Of a stretch of 7,278 nucleotides of DNA, positions 1-7,278 are shown one piece after another. A program made the translations under genes and the position numbers. Source of the stretch: Actinomycetes bacterium (lineage in GTDB: Bacteria; Actinomycetota; Acidimicrobiia; Acidimicrobiales; Palsa-688); contig JAKAXG010000209.1 in assembly GCA_021827225.1 (NCBI GenBank), forward strand, positions 1 through 7,278, given 5' to 3'. Below the pieces are notes generated by a model. That model was not told where the DNA came from, made no database searches, and saw only the letters and a list, made by a program, of their open reading frames with translations. Each line of letters opens with the position of its first letter. Within the stretch, counting starts at the first letter, position 1.

Positions 1-1302
1 GATCTTCACCTCCCGGCTCAGTCGCTGCAGGTCGGGCGTCAGCCCGGCGGCCACGGCGACCGGGCGGTCGAGATCCCGGGCCGCGGGCGGCAACTCGGCC
101 AGGTCGGCCTCGAAGCGGGACCGCCCGGCCTCCCACGACCGCGGAGCGGCGAGGCGCTTTCCCCGGTGCATGACCGGCTCCAGCAGGGGTGCGGTGCCCT
201 CCGGGGGGTTCTCGCCGCGCAGCCCGATCACGTCGCGCAGCCCCGGAGCCCGGAACACCTGCTTGGCCCCCGGCAGAGTCGCCTTACGGGTGGACAGCTT
301 GGCCACCGGCCGCCCGCCGTAGTCGACCAGCTTGTAGGCGCTGTCGAGATACGGGGCGTCGGCCGACACGCCCAGGCGGGTACCGATCCCCGCCGCGTCC
401 ACCGGCGCGCCGGCGGCCACCAGGGCCGCCACGTCCCGCTCGTCCAGCCCTCCGGACACGAATATCCGGACCTGCGGGAGCCCGGCGTCGTCGAGCAGCC
501 GGCGGGCGTCGAAGGCCAGAGCCGCCAGGTCGCCGCTGTCCAGGCGGATGCCCGACGTGCGTTCCAGGCCCAGCCGCCGGATGACCTCGATGGCGTGGCG
601 GACGCCGGCCGGGGTGTCGTAGGTGTCGACGAGGAAGGTGGTCCGCTCGGGCAGATCCTCGGCGAAGGCGGTGAACGCCTCCAACTCGGAGGGGAACGCC
701 TCTATGTAGGAGTGGGCCATGGTCCCGGCCGGGACCAGGCCGTAGCGGTGGGCGGCCTCCACGTTGCTCGTGGACACGAACCCGACCATGGACGACAACC
801 GGGCGGCGGCCAGTCCGGCTTCGATGCCCTGGGTGCGGCGGAAGCCGAACTCCACCAGATCGATGCGTCCGGCGGCGGCCAGGCGGCAGCGGGCCGCCTT
901 GGTGGCCAGCGTGGTCTGGAAGGTGATCTGGTTGAGCAGGTACGTCTCCACCAGCTGGGCGGTGGCGATGGGGGCGGTCACCTCGAGGAGCGGCTCATTG
1001 GCACAGACGATCCGGCCCTCGGGAACGGCCCAGACGTCACCGTCGAAGCGCACGGCGGCGAGGGCGTCGACGGCGTCCCGGTCGAATCCCAGCCCGACCA
1101 GGTAGTCCAGGTCGCCCTCGTCGAAACCGAAGTTCTCCAGCCACGTCAGGCAGTCCTCGACGCCGGCGGCCACCAGGAACCCCCGGCTGGGCGGTAGGCG
1201 GCGGACGAACAGGCTGAACGTCGCCGGGCCGGTCATGCCCCGCCGCAGGTAGCTGGCGGCCATGTTCAGCTCGTACAGGTCCGTCAGCAGCCCGCCCGGC
1301 AC
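1..1302 (-). CDS. pncB: Nicotinate phosphoribosyltransferase, 3' end beyond left edge
   Basis: Joins nicotinate to PRPP, using ATP, to give nicotinate mononucleotide: the first step of the Preiss-Handler NAD salvage route, in the cytoplasm. In the 434 residues visible I read the family's landmarks in order: TDLYELNMA (7-15), the FGFRRTQG segment with paired Arg (152-159), STSNVEAA (177-184), GTMAHSY with the His (197) that is phosphorylated in this family, LVDTYDT (224-230), IRLDSGDLA (252-260), FVSGGLDE (281-288) and GIGTRLG (305-311). Family members are usually about 430-450 aa, so only a few C-terminal residues should be missing. The GTG start at 1302 is chosen for a GAGGAG ribosome site six bases upstream and because the TDLYELNM motif follows at once. 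It lies 34 nt after the stop of the 140-aa gene, so the two are probably cotranscribed. Function is confident; the exact end is unseen. Confidence 0.95.
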   Translation of the reverse strand, partial: MPGGLLTDLYELNMAASYLRRGMTGPATFSLFVRRLPPSRGFLVAAGVEDCLTWLENFGFDEGDLDYLVGLGFDRDAVDALAAVRFDGDVWAVPEGRIVCANEPLLEVTAPIATAQLVETYLLNQITFQTTLATKAARCRLAAAGRIDLVEFGFRRTQGIEAGLAAARLSSMVGFVSTSNVEAAHRYGLVPAGTMAHSYIEAFPSELEAFTAFAEDLPERTTFLVDTYDTPAGVRHAIEVIRRLGLERTSGIRLDSGDLAALAFDARRLLDDAGLPQVRIFVSGGLDERDVAALVAAGAPVDAAGIGTRLGVSADAPYLDSAYKLVDYGGRPVAKLSTRKATLPGAKQVFRAPGLRDVIGLRGENPPEGTAPLLEPVMHRGKRLAAPRSWEAGRSRFEADLAELPPAARDLDRPVAVAAGLTPDLQRLSREVKI

Positions 1303-1336: not shown

Positions 1337-1759
1337 TCAGCCGGACAGGCAGCCCTCGAGCACCATCACCTGCAACGCCCGGGCCCGCACGTCGGCGATG
1401 GCGGAGAAGATCTCCTCCGAAGCGACCGTGGTGCGGTGCAGCAGGTCGGTGAGGAGGTGCTCGACCGGGGACGCCACTTCCGGCTCCACCGCCTGCGCCG
1501 CCCCCCACACCACCAGGAGCGGGTTCACCAGAACGGCCGAGTAGATGAAGCTGTCGCGCAGGTACGGGGTGAGGGCGGTGACCGCCTCGTCCAACCGGTT
1601 CACCCGCTCCTCGACCGGCGCCGTCGAATGGGTTCGCGGCGGGCGAACCGGGACCGGCGGCGGCTCCTGCCGCTCGTGCCTGACGACGGCCACCGGCCGG
1701 TCGATCCCGCTTCCCCGCCCTCCGAATGCTTTGGTGAGTCTGTAGCGCTTGCCGAACAT
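1337..1759 (-). CDS. Unrecognised 140-aa protein upstream of pncB
   Basis: I do not recognise this family. The first 20 or so residues are basic and Gly/Arg-rich (MFGKRYRLTKAFGG). A proline/arginine-rich linker follows (about 32-45, PPPVPVRPPR), then a helical C-terminal half (about 50-140). This half includes a hydrophobic patch (FIYSAVLVNPLLVVWGAAQ, roughly 75-93) and an acidic amphipathic helix ending in EGCLSG. There is no signal peptide; the hydrophobic patch is too interrupted for a sure membrane segment. Codons in this frame carry G/C in nearly every third position, which supports real coding over the overlapping plus-strand frame. I prefer the ATG at 1759: a DosR-like box and an AATAGT -10-like hexamer place the predicted transcript start within a few bases of it, so the message may be leaderless. 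A TTG at 1768 would add three residues. It probably heads a two-gene operon with pncB. Confidence 0.65.
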   Translation of the reverse strand: MFGKRYRLTKAFGGRGSGIDRPVAVVRHERQEPPPVPVRPPRTHSTAPVEERVNRLDEAVTALTPYLRDSFIYSAVLVNPLLVVWGAAQAVEPEVASPVEHLLTDLLHRTTVASEEIFSAIADVRARALQVMVLEGCLSG

Positions 1760-1767
1760 CGAGTTCA

Positions 1768-1810
1768 ACTATTCCGTTCGGGGCGATTGCCCGGCAGGGC
1801 CCAAAGTCAC
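1768..1810 (-). promoter_or_regulatory. Predicted promoter with DosR-like box for the 140-aa gene and pncB
   Basis: On the minus strand GTGACTTTGGGCCCT (1810 to 1796) matches the DosR/DevR consensus as I recall it (GGGACTTNNGNCCCT) at every defined position except the second. After 22 bases comes AATAGT (1773-1768), a plausible -10. The predicted transcript start is about 1761, which puts the box centre near -42, a typical class II activator position. The ATG at 1759 would then be at or almost at the 5' end. The box begins 12 nt after the stop codon of the 102-aa gene. Box similarity is seen directly; the regulator is inferred. Confidence 0.5.
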
Positions 1811-1822
1811 GTGCGGTGGGCG

Positions 1823-2131
1823 CTAAGACTCCTGCGGGCGGTGGTCCGGGGTGGGCAGGGGGAAGCGGGTCGGGGCGTGCCCGGCGGCCGCCCCGGCCAT
1901 GTTCGACACCTTGAGGTAACCGTCGCGGAAGGCCGGCGACCGGTCGCGGAGGGCGGACGCGCTGGCCGCCCTGGAAGGGACCGGTCCCGACAGGTCCCGG
2001 GCGGCGGTGAGCACCCCCACGTAGAAGTCGTGATCCGCCGTCCCCACGCTCAGGGCGGCAGCCCTCATGCGGGCCTCTTCGGCCAGGCGCCGCAGCGCCT
2101 CCCGGACGATCACAGCCGGTTCTGGATTCAT
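1823..2131 (-). CDS. Unrecognised 102-aa protein, divergent from the ATPase operon
   Basis: I do not recognise this family. The protein begins with a predicted amphipathic helix rich in Ala, Glu and Arg (EPAVIVREALRRLAEEARMR). A mixed segment (TADHDFYVGVLTAARDL) follows, then a variable Ser/Ala/Arg stretch, a compact motif FRDGYLKVSNMAG, and a proline-rich tail. There are no membrane segments, cysteines or obvious catalytic motif. It is soluble and small, like many regulon-associated hypothetical proteins. The ATG at 2131 is preferred because GGTGAG stands four bases before it; the GTG at 2140 would add three residues but has no ribosome site. It is transcribed away from the ATPase genes from a shared 148-nt control region. 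The gap to the next minus-strand gene contains a second promoter-like element, so it may be monocistronic. Reality of the gene is likely from its codon pattern and upstream signals, not from homology. Confidence 0.6.
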   Translation of the reverse strand: MNPEPAVIVREALRRLAEEARMRAAALSVGTADHDFYVGVLTAARDLSGPVPSRAASASALRDRSPAFRDGYLKVSNMAGAAAGHAPTRFPLPTPDHRPQES

Positions 2132-2135
2132 GTCA

Positions 2136-2141
2136 CTCACC
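2136..2141 (-). promoter_or_regulatory. Ribosome binding site of the 102-aa gene
   Basis: GGTGAG on the minus strand, four bases before the ATG at 2131. It overlaps the alternative GTG start at 2140, so the two starts exclude each other; the site favours the ATG. Confidence 0.45.
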
Positions 2142-2149
2142 CGGACCGG

Positions 2150-2192
2150 AGCTTAGGTACCCCCCGGCCGGTGCCATAGGGTCCAACGTCAC
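2150..2192 (-). promoter_or_regulatory. Predicted promoter with DosR-like box for the 102-aa gene
   Basis: On the minus strand GTGACGTTGGACCCT (2192 to 2178) is followed after 22 bases by TAAGCT (2155-2150), which fits the actinobacterial -10 pattern TANNNT. The predicted start is near 2144, giving a 13-nt leader and placing the box centre near -41. This box is the left arm of the perfect inverted repeat. It differs from the recalled DosR consensus at two of its 11 defined positions. Confidence 0.5.
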
Positions 2193-2217
2193 TCCCGGCC
2201 ACGTGACGTTGGACCCT
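2178..2217. repeat. Perfect 15-bp inverted repeat in the divergent intergenic region
   Basis: The left arm 2178-2192 (AGGGTCCAACGTCAC) and right arm 2203-2217 (GTGACGTTGGACCCT) are exact reverse complements, 15 of 15, with a 10-base spacer (2193-2202). Pairing could extend by GCC/GGC (2173-2175 with 2218-2220) past a two-base bulge. Neither side is followed by a T-run, so it does not look like an intrinsic terminator. Each arm is a DosR-like box pointing outward to the nearer gene, and a third near-copy occurs at 1796-1810, so a paired regulator site is the best reading. If transcribed it would form a strong hairpin. Confidence 0.9.
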
Positions 2218-2246
2218 GGCCGGACCGGGCGGGACAAACCCACACT
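2203..2246 (+). promoter_or_regulatory. Predicted promoter with DosR-like box for the ATPase operon
   Basis: GTGACGTTGGACCCT (2203-2217) is followed after 23 bases by CACACT (2241-2246), a weak -10-like hexamer. The predicted start is near 2252, so the box centre is again about -42 and the leader about 28 nt. Its flanks extend the match with the 1796-1810 copy to CACGTGAC and CCCTG. The -10 is the weakest of the three, as would be expected of an activator-dependent promoter, but it could also be a chance choice. Confidence 0.42.
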
Positions 2247-2279: not shown

Positions 2280-2759
2280 GTGCCCTCGCTGGCCCAGCTT
2301 CTGCGCCGGCTGCGGCGCCACGCCGTCCCCGGGCGGGCCCAGCCGGCGGCCGTTCCGGTCGACCGGACGGCGGAGATGCGGGAGGAGCTGGCACCGGTGT
2401 TCGCGTTGCTGGAGCCGGTGGTGGAAGCGACCAGCGCCCAACTGGAGCTGGCCGCCCGCCAGGCGGAGCAGCTCCTGGCCGAGGCCACGGCCCGGTCCCG
2501 GCAGGCGGCCGAGGACGCCGAGCGACGCTACCCCGGGGAGACGGCCGCCGAGATGGCCCGCGAACTGTCCCGGCTCGACCGGGAGGCGCACCGGGCGACC
2601 GTCCGGGCCGAGGCGGAGTCCGCCGCGGACGGCGAAGCCCTCAGAGCGCGGGTCCAGGCCCTGAGCAGCCGGATGGTGGACTTCGCGCTGGCCCTGCCGT
2701 ACCAGCAGGCCGCCGCCGGAGCTGATCACGACCGCCCCGCCGCCCAGAACGGGGCCTGA
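2280..2759 (+). CDS. V/A-type ATPase peripheral stalk subunit (G/H-like)
   Basis: Probable partner of subunit E in the peripheral stalk, which holds the catalytic head still against the turning rotor. The 159-aa protein has a basic N-terminus (LLRRLRRH, 7-14), a Pro/Ala linker (about 16-28), then one long, charged, Ala/Glu/Arg-rich helix from about 31 to 138 with heptad-like spacing. That is the expected build of a stalk subunit. A short polar tail follows. There are no membrane segments. Stalk subunits keep little sequence identity, so the call rests on helix architecture and on being first in the operon, where archaeal ahaH also sits. The GTG start follows an AGGAGG site. Its stop overlaps the next start by one base (TGATG), so the pair should be translationally coupled. 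At 159 aa it is longer than typical G/H subunits (about 100-120). It could also be a lineage-specific stalk-associated protein. Confidence 0.65.
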   Translation: MPSLAQLLRRLRRHAVPGRAQPAAVPVDRTAEMREELAPVFALLEPVVEATSAQLELAARQAEQLLAEATARSRQAAEDAERRYPGETAAEMARELSRLDREAHRATVRAEAESAADGEALRARVQALSSRMVDFALALPYQQAAAGADHDRPAAQNGA

Positions 2760-3656
2760 TGGCCGGCGCCGCCGTCGCCGGCTGGGTCCGGGGCAGGGCG
2801 CTGCTGGACCGGCGTATCGGCCCGGAGGCCGCCCGGGAGCTGGCCGCCGCCGCTTCGCCCGCCGACGCGGTCGCCGCCCTGGCGGCCACGCCCTACGGCC
2901 ACGACGTCCGCCCCGGTATGGACCTGCCGGCCGCGCAGCGGGCCGTCCGGGCCGCCCTGCTTTGGAACCTGCGGGTGTTCGCCGGTTGGGCACCCCCCGG
3001 TCCGTCGAACCAGGTGCGGGTGCTCGCCGGCGGGTTCGAGATCGTCAACACGGTGGACCGGCTGGTGGAGCTGGCCGGCGGCCCACCCGCCCACCCGTTC
3101 GCGCTGGGCTCCCTGTCGACGTCGTGGGGGGCGGTGAGCGGGGCCGGGACCGTCGCCGCCGTGCGGGCCGCTCTCGGCCGGTCGGAGTGGGGCGACCCGG
3201 GAGCCGACGATCCCGGCGCCGTGCTGCTGGCCCTCCGCCTGGCGTGGGCCCGGCGGGTGTTCGACGACGTCGCCCCGGCCGGCGGGTGGGCCAGGGCGGC
3301 TGTCGGTCTCATGGTCGGCCACATCCGGGCCGTGGGTGGGGAGGCGGTCGTCACGGCGGCCGCCCGGCGCGACCTGGCCCACGTGCTCGGCCGGCCCCTG
3401 GGCCAGGTGCCGGGCCGGCCCTCCGGAGGGACGCAACCGCCCGGCGCAGGACCGGGCGGCGGCTGGCCGGACTGGTGGCGCCGGCTGGAGGACGACGCGG
3501 CCGCCATGGCCGCCGCCAGCCGGGCGACCCCGGCGGCCACCGTGGGCGTGGTGGGGTTGCTGGCCGCCGACGCCTGGCGGGCCGGGTCGGCTCTGGCCCT
3601 GGCCGGCGGCCCGCCCCCCACCCTCACGGGCGAGCAGGAACGGACGGGTCTCCTCG

Positions 3657-3670
<14 letters not shown>
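2759..3670 (+). CDS. atpC: V/A-type ATPase subunit C (V0 d-like)
   Basis: The central-stalk cap that sits on the proteolipid ring and connects it to the D/F rotor shaft. At 303 aa it is a little shorter than classical C/d subunits (about 320-350). Landmarks I associate with the actinobacterial version of this family are visible: RGRALLDRRIG (11-21), TPYGHDVR (44-51), LLWNLRVFAGW (67-77), RVLAGGFEIVN (87-97), RSEWGDPG (141-148) and LLAADAWR (267-274). The composition is mainly helical with repeated Trp residues, as in the funnel-shaped d fold. A Gly/Pro-rich segment (about 219-236, PGRPSGGTQPPGAGPGGG) probably forms a flexible loop. The ATG overlaps the previous stop by one base, and the tail overlaps the start of subunit I by 14 nt. 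The assignment combines these motifs with operon position. Confidence 0.85.
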
Positions 3671-5398
<1,728 letters not shown>

Positions 5399-5401
5399 AG
5401 C

Positions 5402-5620
5402 GTGGGCCGGGTCCTCGTGATCGGCGAAGCGGCCAGGGTCCGCCCGTTCGCCCTGGCCGGAGCGGTGGTGGCCGCCGCCGACAGCGCGGAGGCGGCGGTG
5501 CGGGCGTGGACCGCCCGCCCCGGGGACGTCACCCTGGTGATCCTCACGCCGCGGGCCGCCGAGGCCCTGTCCGGCCTGCCCCGGCCAGCGGAGATCCTCG
5601 AGGCGGTGATGGAGGGGTGA
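5402..5620 (+). CDS. atpF: V/A-type ATPase subunit F, short form
   Basis: Central-rotor subunit that binds the D shaft. At 72 aa it keeps the N-terminal half of the fold: strand RVLVIGE (3-9), the FALAGA turn (16-21) that corresponds to the family's GFRLAGI, helix SAEAAVRAW (28-36), and strand DVTLVILTPRAA (42-53). It stops after LEAVMEG. Classical F subunits are about 100-105 aa and continue with another strand and a C-terminal helix that contacts D. That part is missing here, and no continuation is available because subunit E begins at once in another frame. The GTG start is three bases after the K stop, and GGAAAGG in the last K codons may serve as its ribosome site. It ends in a GTGA overlap with E. 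Identity rests on N-terminal motif and position. Confidence 0.75.
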   Translation: MGRVLVIGEAARVRPFALAGAVVAAADSAEAAVRAWTARPGDVTLVILTPRAAEALSGLPRPAEILEAVMEG

Positions 5621-6147
5621 GCGCCACCGCTGACGCGTCGCTGGCCGAGGAGCTGGCCCCGGTCGCCCGGGAACTCCAGGAGTCGGCCGCCCGCAGGTCG
5701 GCCGAGCTGCGGGCGGCGGCGGAGGAGAAGGCGGTGGCTCTCATGGCCCGGTCCCTCGAGCAGGCCGCCCGCACCCTGGAGGACGCCCGCCGGGCCGGAG
5801 CGTCCTCGGCGCGCCGGGTCGGGGCGGCCCGGGGCGCGGAAAGCCGCCGCCGGGCCAGGGAGGCGGTGCTGGCCGCCCGGCGGGAAGCCTACGAATCGCT
5901 GCGCGCGGATGTCGCCGCCCGGATCGACGAGCAGCTGGACCTCCCGGCCGGCCGGGACCTGCGCGCCTACCTGTGCGACCTGGTGGCGGCACGCGCCGGT
6001 GCGCCGGCGGTGGAGGGACGGGAACCGGGGGGACGGTGGCGGGCGGTGGCGGAATCCCCCTCGGGCCGGGCGTCGGTGGATGTGGACACGCTGGTCGATC
6101 AGCTGCTCGACCGCTTCGGTGCCGAGGTGGAGGCCCTGTGGAGCTGA
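5617..6147 (+). CDS. atpE: V/A-type ATPase peripheral stalk subunit E
   Basis: Pairs with the G/H-like subunit to form the stator stalk and anchors it to the head. The 176-aa protein has a long charged helix from about 9 to 108, rich in Ala/Arg/Glu with repeated ARR and AEL steps. It includes REAVLAARREAYESL (81-95), which matches the family's conserved stretch before the globular domain. A smaller C-terminal domain (about 110-176) ends in VDVDTLVDQLLDRFGAEVEALW (154-175), again typical of E. At 176 aa it is slightly shorter than classical E (about 185-200). The GTG start overlaps the F stop by four bases (GTGA), so it probably depends on termination-reinitiation. The GGAGGG just before it is too close to act well alone. 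The open frame extends upstream to 5083, but that part overlaps K and F and is not coding. The end overlaps subunit A by 10 nt. Confidence 0.85.
   Translation: MSATADASLAEELAPVARELQESAARRSAELRAAAEEKAVALMARSLEQAARTLEDARRAGASSARRVGAARGAESRRRAREAVLAARREAYESLRADVAARIDEQLDLPAGRDLRAYLCDLVAARAGAPAVEGREPGGRWRAVAESPSGRASVDVDTLVDQLLDRFGAEVEALWS
6129..6133 (+). promoter_or_regulatory. Ribosome binding site of atpA inside atpE
   Basis: GGAGG within the last codons of subunit E, four bases before the GTG at 6138. It supports this start, which directly precedes the expected N-terminal beta strand of subunit A (ELTGRVVRVNGPLVEVEG). Confidence 0.6.
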
Positions 6148-7278
6148 CCGGCCGGGTGGTCCGGGTGAACGGCCCGCTCGTGGAAGTGGAGGGCCTGGAG
6201 CGGGTGGCGGTGCTGGACGTGCTCGAGATCGGCGACCGCCGGCTGACCGCCGAGGTGGTGGCCGTGCGGCCCGGCCGGGCCACCGCCCAGGTGTACGACT
6301 ACACGGGTGGTCTGGCCGTCGGGGACCCGGTGACCGGACTCGACCGGCCGCTCTCGGCCGAGTTGGGGCCGGGGCTGCTGGGAGGCGCCTTCGACGGGCT
6401 GCTCCGCCCGCTCGGCCCGTCCGGCAGGTGGCTGCAGCCCGGTCGCAGACCGAACCGGTCGACCGTGTCGTGGTCGTTCCAGCCGGCGTGCTCGCCGGGG
6501 CAGGACATGGCACCGGGCGGGCTGGTCGGCACGGTCGCCACGGCCGCCGGTCTGGAGCACAGGGTCATCGCCCCGCCGAACGTCTCGGGAACCGTCGACT
6601 GGGTCAGCGGGCCGGCCGAGGTTCCCGACGACGAACCCGTCGCCCGGATCGGCGGCGCCACCGTCACCCTCACGGAGTGGTGGCCGGTGCGCCGGCCCCG
6701 CCCCTATGCCAGGGCCCTGGACCTGAGCGTCCCGCTCCTCACCGGCCAGCGGGTGGTCGACCTGCTGTTCCCCATCGCCCGGGGGGCCACCGCCGCCGTC
6801 CCCGGCGGGTTCGGCACCGGCAAGACGGTCCTCCTGCAGCAGATCGTGAAGTGGTGCAGCGCCGACGTCATCGTCTTCGTCGGCTGCGGCGAGAGGGGCA
6901 ACGAGCTGGTCGACGCCCTCACCGATCTGTCCGAGCTGCAGGACCCGGTGAGCGGACGGCCCCTGGCCCAGCGGACGGTGGTGATCGCCAACACCTCCAA
7001 CATGGCGGTGATGGCCCGGGAAGCGAGCATCTACACCGGCATGACGGTGGCCGAGTACTACCGCGACATGGGCTACCACGCCGTCCTGCTGGCCGACTCG
7101 ACGTCCAGATGGGCCGAGTCACTGCGCGAGTTCGCCTCCCGCAACGGGGAGTTGCCTGTCGAGGAGGGCTACCCGGCCGGGTTGCCCTCGGCCCTGGCCG
7201 GCTTCTACGAGCGGGCCGGCCGGGTGATCACCAGATCCGGCCGGGAGGGCTCGGTGACCGCCATCGGATCCGTGTCCC
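6138..7278 (+). CDS. atpA: V/A-type ATPase catalytic subunit A, 3' end beyond right edge
   Basis: The nucleotide-hydrolysing subunit of the A3B3 head. The window holds 380 of an expected 580-600 residues. In order: N-terminal beta-barrel (TGRVVRVNGPLVEVEG, 4-19), the A-specific insertion domain leading to EWWPVRRPRPY, then LLTGQRVVDLLFPIARG, P-loop PGGFGTGKT (222-230, Lys229), GCGERGNE with the catalytic Glu252 and Arg253, NTSNM (285-289), REASIYTG, ADSTSRW (319-325) and EEGYPA (342-347). The insertion domain and the GERGNE motif separate it from the F-type beta subunit and from subunit B. Thr227 replaces the cysteine found in the eukaryotic P-loop (GAFGCGKT), so that disulfide control is absent. 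No frameshift or missing catalytic residue is seen. The GTG start overlaps E by 10 nt. Subunits B and D should follow outside the window. Confidence 0.97.
   Translation, partial: MELTGRVVRVNGPLVEVEGLERVAVLDVLEIGDRRLTAEVVAVRPGRATAQVYDYTGGLAVGDPVTGLDRPLSAELGPGLLGGAFDGLLRPLGPSGRWLQPGRRPNRSTVSWSFQPACSPGQDMAPGGLVGTVATAAGLEHRVIAPPNVSGTVDWVSGPAEVPDDEPVARIGGATVTLTEWWPVRRPRPYARALDLSVPLLTGQRVVDLLFPIARGATAAVPGGFGTGKTVLLQQIVKWCSADVIVFVGCGERGNELVDALTDLSELQDPVSGRPLAQRTVVIANTSNMAVMAREASIYTGMTVAEYYRDMGYHAVLLADSTSRWAESLREFASRNGELPVEEGYPAGLPSALAGFYERAGRVITRSGREGSVTAIGSVS

Follow-up and report, generated by a model that had tools for sequence, protein, structure and literature searches.

The closest described counterpart of the locus analysed here is the DosR/DevR regulon of Mycobacterium tuberculosis. 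According to the available part of PMC4428469, universal stress proteins and triacylglyceride synthases are core DosR genes and the nicotinate phosphoribosyltransferase (NAPRTase) gene pncB2 is a peripheral one. Lys179, Lys182 and Asn183 are named as the base-contacting residues of DosR in the accessible portion of PMC4082495, and the DevR site nearest the transcript start overlaps the -35 element (PMC3029386, available text). Outside mycobacteria, the DevR orthologue OsdR of Streptomyces coelicolor is predicted to govern a stress regulon with universal stress proteins and pyruvate phosphate dikinase among its members; its consensus, AGGGCCGATCGGCCCT, is unlike the boxes described below, and the words ATPase and nicotinate are absent from the main text of PMC5069765 as far as it was available. 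Excerpts of PMC12919924, PMC11876180 and PMC10034137 were also consulted.

The window, by which we mean the whole 7,278-nucleotide stretch of DNA, probably comes from an uncultured actinobacterium, of a lineage other than the mycobacteria, and carries three boxes of the DosR type. DosR sites were predicted here comparatively, as Gerasimova et al. (2011) reportedly did for mycobacterial dormancy regulons. The locus and its relatives resemble the M. tuberculosis regulon in the type of box, in a start-proximal site predicted to overlap the -35 region, in putative members (universal stress protein, triacylglyceride synthase and NAPRTase genes) and, as judged from proteins of relatives, in a NarL-family regulator with identical base-contact residues. 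Unlike in M. tuberculosis, T stands at box position 2 in 23 of the 68 tabulated sites of relatives, and the candidate members include a V-type ATPase, an acyl-CoA ligase/2-oxoacid dehydrogenase/ACP cluster and the family of a small protein encoded at 1823-2131.

The box GTGACTTTGGGCCCT lies at 1796-1810 on the minus strand and faces the 1337-1759 gene, with NAPRTase behind it. The box GTGACGTTGGACCCT occurs twice, at 2178-2192 (minus), facing the 1823-2131 gene, and at 2203-2217 (plus), facing the V-type ATPase operon. A preliminary description had placed three DosR-like boxes here, and each of its coordinates and strands was confirmed. All three match the pattern GKGACNTTNGNCCCT exactly and are its only exact sites in the window; under a first-order Markov null this pattern, which was composed after the boxes had been seen, has a mean of 0.0007 sites per window, and two or more sites arose in 0/3000 cases. 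The sequence GGGACTTNNGNCCCT, used in the preliminary description, is presumably the semi-palindromic DosR/DevR consensus and provides a comparison independent of the window's own boxes. The fit claimed for it was right: 10/11 positions agree at 1796-1810 and 9/11 in both GTGACGTTGGACCCT copies, leaving one, two and two mismatches. Allowing up to two mismatches, GGGACTTNNGNCCCT matched the window five times (shuffle mean 1.16; 0/200 shuffles reached five); three of these matches are the boxes, and two lie inside V-ATPase genes (4891 and 5954). A matrix made from 68 exact-pattern sites of other genomes and 13 NAPRTase-upstream sites scored the three boxes 22.7, 21.6 and 21.6 and the next site 9.5, 12 bits lower, a ranking that is partly circular because the sites were gathered with GKGACNTTNGNCCCT, which fits the window boxes; the reversed matrix reached at most 4.1 on the window. 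A search of the plasmid collection gave no match. The longer core CACGTGAC that had also been proposed is common to two of the three copies, but its CAC is not kept in the 68 sites of relatives, and it was rejected as a common signal for lack of conservation among them.

At 2178-2217 the two GTGACGTTGGACCCT copies are arranged as a perfect 15-bp inverted repeat with a 10-nt loop and 100% complementary arms, and may therefore have arisen together rather than as independent events. This geometry, together with an RNA fold of -32.5 kcal/mol (z -4.0), would also suit a reading without DosR, as a single palindromic operator or an RNA hairpin. We consider such a reading very unlikely, since the third copy (1796-1810) stands alone, a separate -10-like hexamer follows each arm on that arm's side, and the divergent box pairs of relatives have other spacings (60 nt between the boxes in genome G001) and unequal sequences. 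The repeat is followed by no terminator-like T run, and the hairpin or terminator reading was set aside. Taken as separate DosR-type operators, the boxes each face a start codon of their own, as had been claimed; the gaps measured from the sequence, 36 nt (ATG 1759), 46 nt (ATG 2131) and 62 nt (GTG 2280), are close to the 37-63 nt first given.

Each box is followed by a -10-like hexamer: AATAGT at 1768-1773 (minus), 22 nt past the box at 1796-1810; TAAGCT at 2150-2155 (minus), 22 nt past the box at 2178-2192; and CACACT at 2241-2246 (plus), 23 nt past the box at 2203-2217. AATAGT does not have the first-position pyrimidine of the motif YANNNT. These hexamers had originally been picked by eye, and their spacing recurs elsewhere. 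Among 95 exact sites outside the window, distinct by their 60-nt context and not phylogenetically independent, YANNNT begins at 22 nt in 26 and at 23 nt in 16, against a mean of 0.9 and a maximum of 5 at the other 52 offsets (p 1e-46). The same peak was found at 112 one-mismatch sites (23 at 22 nt and 11 at 23 nt), one of the eight reversed-pattern sites had YANNNT at offset 23, and there was no spacing peak on the opposite strand. Because it recurs at 42/95 other sites, the 22/23-nt spacing is a general property of the box. If the hexamer is placed at -12 to -7, the box covers roughly -49 to -35 with its centre near -42, and at these predicted starts the boxes would overlap the -35 region, as a proximal site does. 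A strict sigma-70 scan of 1700-2320 (TTGACA + TATAAT, 9/12) returned no promoter, which counts against the operator reading. The predicted start of the 1337-1759 gene falls almost at ATG 1759 (window 1757-1773), suggesting a leaderless transcript.

Box statistics were obtained from the Acidimicrobiia genomes G001 (L013), G005 (L020) and G250, in which the exact pattern occurs 14, 31 and 26 times genome-wide and its reversed control 0, 0 and 0 times. The sites are not placed at random. Only 7 of 75 distinct exact sites, mostly from stretches of these three genomes with a few from G002, G633 and G640, fall in called genes, which cover 69.5% of the bases (binomial p 1e-27), and a called start lies within 300 nt on either side at 48 of the 75. 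Genes were called by a rough codon-usage caller that overlooked known ones, among them the first V-ATPase genes in L132, and the downstream-gene counts are therefore minimum values. Universal stress proteins, which are core DosR members in M. tuberculosis, lie under the same boxes in these relatives: an exact box was found within 300 nt upstream of 5 of their 52 universal stress protein matches, where 0.09 were expected. Among the Pfam matches listed (25 of 73 families) for 60 called proteins starting within 300 nt of a box, three were universal stress proteins, three pyridoxamine-phosphate-oxidase-like, two WS/DGAT (wax ester/diacylglycerol acyltransferase) and one pyruvate phosphate dikinase.

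The same three genomes gave 30 GerE-domain matches, and the 12 proteins recovered from these include a tight group of four that are 62-90% identical. For the G250 and G005 members, the best PDB match is DevR 3c3w (1.2e-75 and 1e-68), with VraR and NarL far behind, and the equivalents of Lys179, Lys182 and Asn183, with DevR residues counted by hand, are identical in both proteins checked. A DosR-like NarL-family regulator therefore exists in relatives. A protein of G001 is 93% identical to the G250 regulator, and the G005 regulator clusters with universal stress genes and a box. The kinase adjoining the G250 regulator, the one kinase examined, has the DevS haem GAF domain as its best PDB match (7.9e-42) and keeps the equivalent of His149, numbered by hand with construct limits taken partly from recall. 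We infer that a regulator of the same kind is probably encoded in the window's organism.

Boxes and regulator also occur together across the class. In a draw of 148 genomes, 67 of the 77 with a DosR/DevR orthologue carry boxes (236 in all), compared with 13 of the 71 without one (22 boxes; Fisher 6e-18); when only genomes of at least 2 Mb are counted, the figures are 62/71 and 12/30. Orthologues were taken at E<=1e-60, a cut chosen after the scores had been seen, in the gap between 6e-64 and 2e-50. Ten of the 77 genomes with an orthologue are without an exact box, which, like the 22 boxes in genomes without one, speaks against the operator reading. These 13 genomes, one of which (G050) has a partial orthologue (66%, 113 residues), and the several NarL-family proteins per genome among the GerE matches would agree with control of the boxes by a NarL-family paralogue that has DosR-like specificity and responds to a signal other than hypoxia. 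We judge a paralogue to be unlikely, since the orthologues stand apart from all weaker matches, the three base-contact residues are kept in both of those checked, the kinase beside the G250 regulator is DevS-like, and box counts follow orthologue presence. Furthermore, in at least 14 genomes the distance between a box and the regulator gene, whichever side the box is on, is no more than about 2 kb (tables compared by eye).

Chance resemblance, or a dispersed repeat without regulatory role, would be in line with the result for the laxer pattern GTGACNTTGGNCCCT, whose five window matches at up to three mismatches are not unusual (31/200 shuffles reach five). It is contradicted by the position and spacing statistics, the shuffles, the reversed controls and the orthologue co-occurrence, and we regard it as extremely improbable. 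The tests run on relatives (placement, orthologue co-occurrence, spacing and universal stress proteins) were all favourable to the earlier proposal that the boxes unite a regulon. Collectively, the comparison indicated that the three boxes are very probably DosR/DevR-type (NarL family) operators of three units, centred near -42 and 22-23 nt before a -10 hexamer.

The first of these units consists of the small protein gene at 1337-1759 (minus; 140 aa, ATG 1759) and the NAPRTase gene at 1-1302 (minus; PF17767 1.3e-28, NF009131 1.1e-177), which are separated by 34 nt and are probably co-transcribed. The C-terminal end of NAPRTase may be cut by the window edge; its best matches are actinobacterial proteins, up to 72% identical. 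The 1337-1759 protein has no Pfam or NCBIfam match and four homologues, one of them 99% identical with the same ATG start; judged by their homologues, both it and the 1823-2131 protein look real. Upstream of NAPRTase, a box with at most one mismatch was found within 250 nt at 14/79 loci, exact at five, compared with 116/5238 background windows of the same loci, which may themselves contain real boxes (odds 9.5, p 4e-9). The reversed pattern was found at 0/79. The scan covered 80 loci, of which L052 was dropped because its upstream region was too short. In Actinomadura bangladeshensis (L069, L133), a second lineage with adjacent NAPRTase and V-ATPase, the two diverge from each other, and a weak box lies in between.

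The second unit is the gene at 1823-2131 (minus), which encodes a conserved protein of 102 aa with many invariant residues; 28 proteins, itself included, are listed for its family. Its predicted model is helical (pLDDT 78.7) and had no PDB match at E<=0.001. In 395 genomes, six matches to the family were found in five, four of them confident. Three of the four confident members (L260, L261 and L262; three of all six) are preceded by a box that has one mismatch at most, and two of these three have a YANNNT hexamer at 22 nt; no such box was found for L265 or for the marginal L263 and L264. By eye, neighbours of the family look like CBS-domain and pyridoxamine-phosphate-oxidase-like proteins. The boxes at family loci make this protein a candidate dormancy protein independent of V-ATPase.

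The third unit is the V-type ATPase operon, all on the plus strand. Its first gene (2280-2759) had no Pfam or NCBIfam match over cut-off; homologues immediately precede the C-like subunit gene in relatives, and by position it probably encodes a stalk (G/H-like) subunit. It is followed by the C-like subunit (2759-3670), the I subunit (3657-4997; 6.2e-28), the K/c subunit (4982-5398; 4.9e-16), the F-like subunit (5402-5620), the E-like subunit (5617-6147) and the A subunit, which begins at 6138 and is cut by the window end at 7278 (1.3e-142); the C-, F- and E-like assignments rest on matches below curated cut-offs. The I subunit is short (446 aa) and appears to be without much of the N-terminal cytoplasmic stator part, because its best NCBIfam match begins at profile position 279/646. 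The c subunit has an N-terminal extension ahead of the ATP-synt_C domain (residues 75-134). Its carboxylate motif, AEGIAIY, is also present in G005 and G250, and it looks like the proton type.

V-ATPase is rare in the class, with two strong and nine weak matches in 296 genomes; strong matches numbered 2 in 198 genomes of one order and 5 in 17 of one family. In all five Acidimicrobiia relatives found to carry it (G001, G005, G250, G633 and G640), boxes head the presumed V-ATPase transcription unit, and in two of them (G001 and G250) a box lies directly before the first V-ATPase gene. In G001, an exact box stands 46-61 nt before that gene, according to the start codon, with TAGCGT at 22 nt, and a divergent one-mismatch box faces a universal stress gene. 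In G250, a one-mismatch box is found 68 nt ahead of the first V-ATPase gene with TAGGCT at 22 nt, and an exact box (TACCGT at 22 nt), opposite a universal stress gene, stands ahead of the acyl-CoA ligase/2-oxoacid dehydrogenase/ACP cluster that lies upstream. The other three have no box directly before the first gene, so that control of their V-ATPase assumes co-transcription with the leading genes. In G005, which has no box directly before V-ATPase, an exact box (TAGCGT at 22 nt), again opposite a universal stress gene, heads a cluster of the same kind that runs with small gaps into V-ATPase. In G633, two exact boxes are flanked by genes for an acyl-CoA ligase and an acetyltransferase, the latter 133 nt ahead of V-ATPase; in G640, two one-mismatch boxes lie between an acetyltransferase gene and a DUF1918 gene leading into V-ATPase. 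This DUF1918 gene (L259:9422-9628) is directly ahead of the operon; DUF1918 is, we presume, the family of the DosR-regulated Rv0569. At L131:3744-9191 and L130:11208-16739, acyl-CoA ligase, 2-oxoacid dehydrogenase E1/E2 and ACP genes precede V-ATPase on the same strand, with Pfam checks covering L131 and the ligase of L130. Four of the five relatives have an F1 beta subunit over cut-off, and none over cut-off was found in G005.

When the matrix was applied to a fixed 320-nt window, G005, G633 and G640 scored like background (-2.0, 2.4 and -4.2). Over all 28 V-ATPase loci the excess over background had p 0.0013 and the paired comparison with the reversed matrix p 0.11. Scores of at least 8 were reached at 6 of 23 Streptosporangiales loci versus 38/727 background windows (paired p 0.24), and one (L247) of eight Streptosporangiales loci inspected had YANNNT at 22/23 nt on the V-ATPase side. 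The excess being only weak, the link between V-ATPase and the boxes is not claimed for Streptosporangiales.

Our proposal for the mechanism is as follows. A DevS-type haem sensor kinase would sense low oxygen or a related gas signal, and the phosphorylated DosR/DevR-type regulator would bind the boxes, overlapping the -35 region, and switch on the V-type ATPase operon, the divergent 1823-2131 gene and the 1337-1759/NAPRTase pair. The V-type ATPase would most simply serve as an extra rotary pump that keeps an ion gradient when respiration stalls; boxes before its operon suggest that an ion-pumping ATPase forms part of the dormancy programme. V-ATPase and the 1823-2131 family appear to be additions to the DosR regulon. 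An ordinary regulator would thus be found in an unexpected place, and in Acidimicrobiia the V-type ATPase would be a target of a new kind. We put forward, tentatively and with somewhat less than even confidence, that a complete second rotary ATPase, of the V-type, is under the direct control of the dormancy regulator in Acidimicrobiia. On this view the cell would respond to oxygen loss by building an ATP-driven proton pump that keeps up the membrane potential through dormancy, alongside NAD salvage and, for some relatives, the acyl-CoA ligase/2-oxoacid dehydrogenase/ACP cluster. A search of the open-licence literature, outside which most subscription papers lie, found none linking DosR with V-type ATPase and nicotinate phosphoribosyltransferase; the one match for DosR with V-type ATPase was on Trypanosoma, and Acidimicrobiia with DosR gave none.

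The 22/23-nt spacing allows DosR sites in uncultured actinobacteria to be searched for with a sharper rule, and the 1823-2131 family adds a new candidate dormancy protein. If the V-type ATPase is a DosR target, the question of how dormant actinobacteria maintain a membrane potential without respiration would be testable by expression and knock-out, and some lineages would own an oxygen-controlled pump for their membrane potential.
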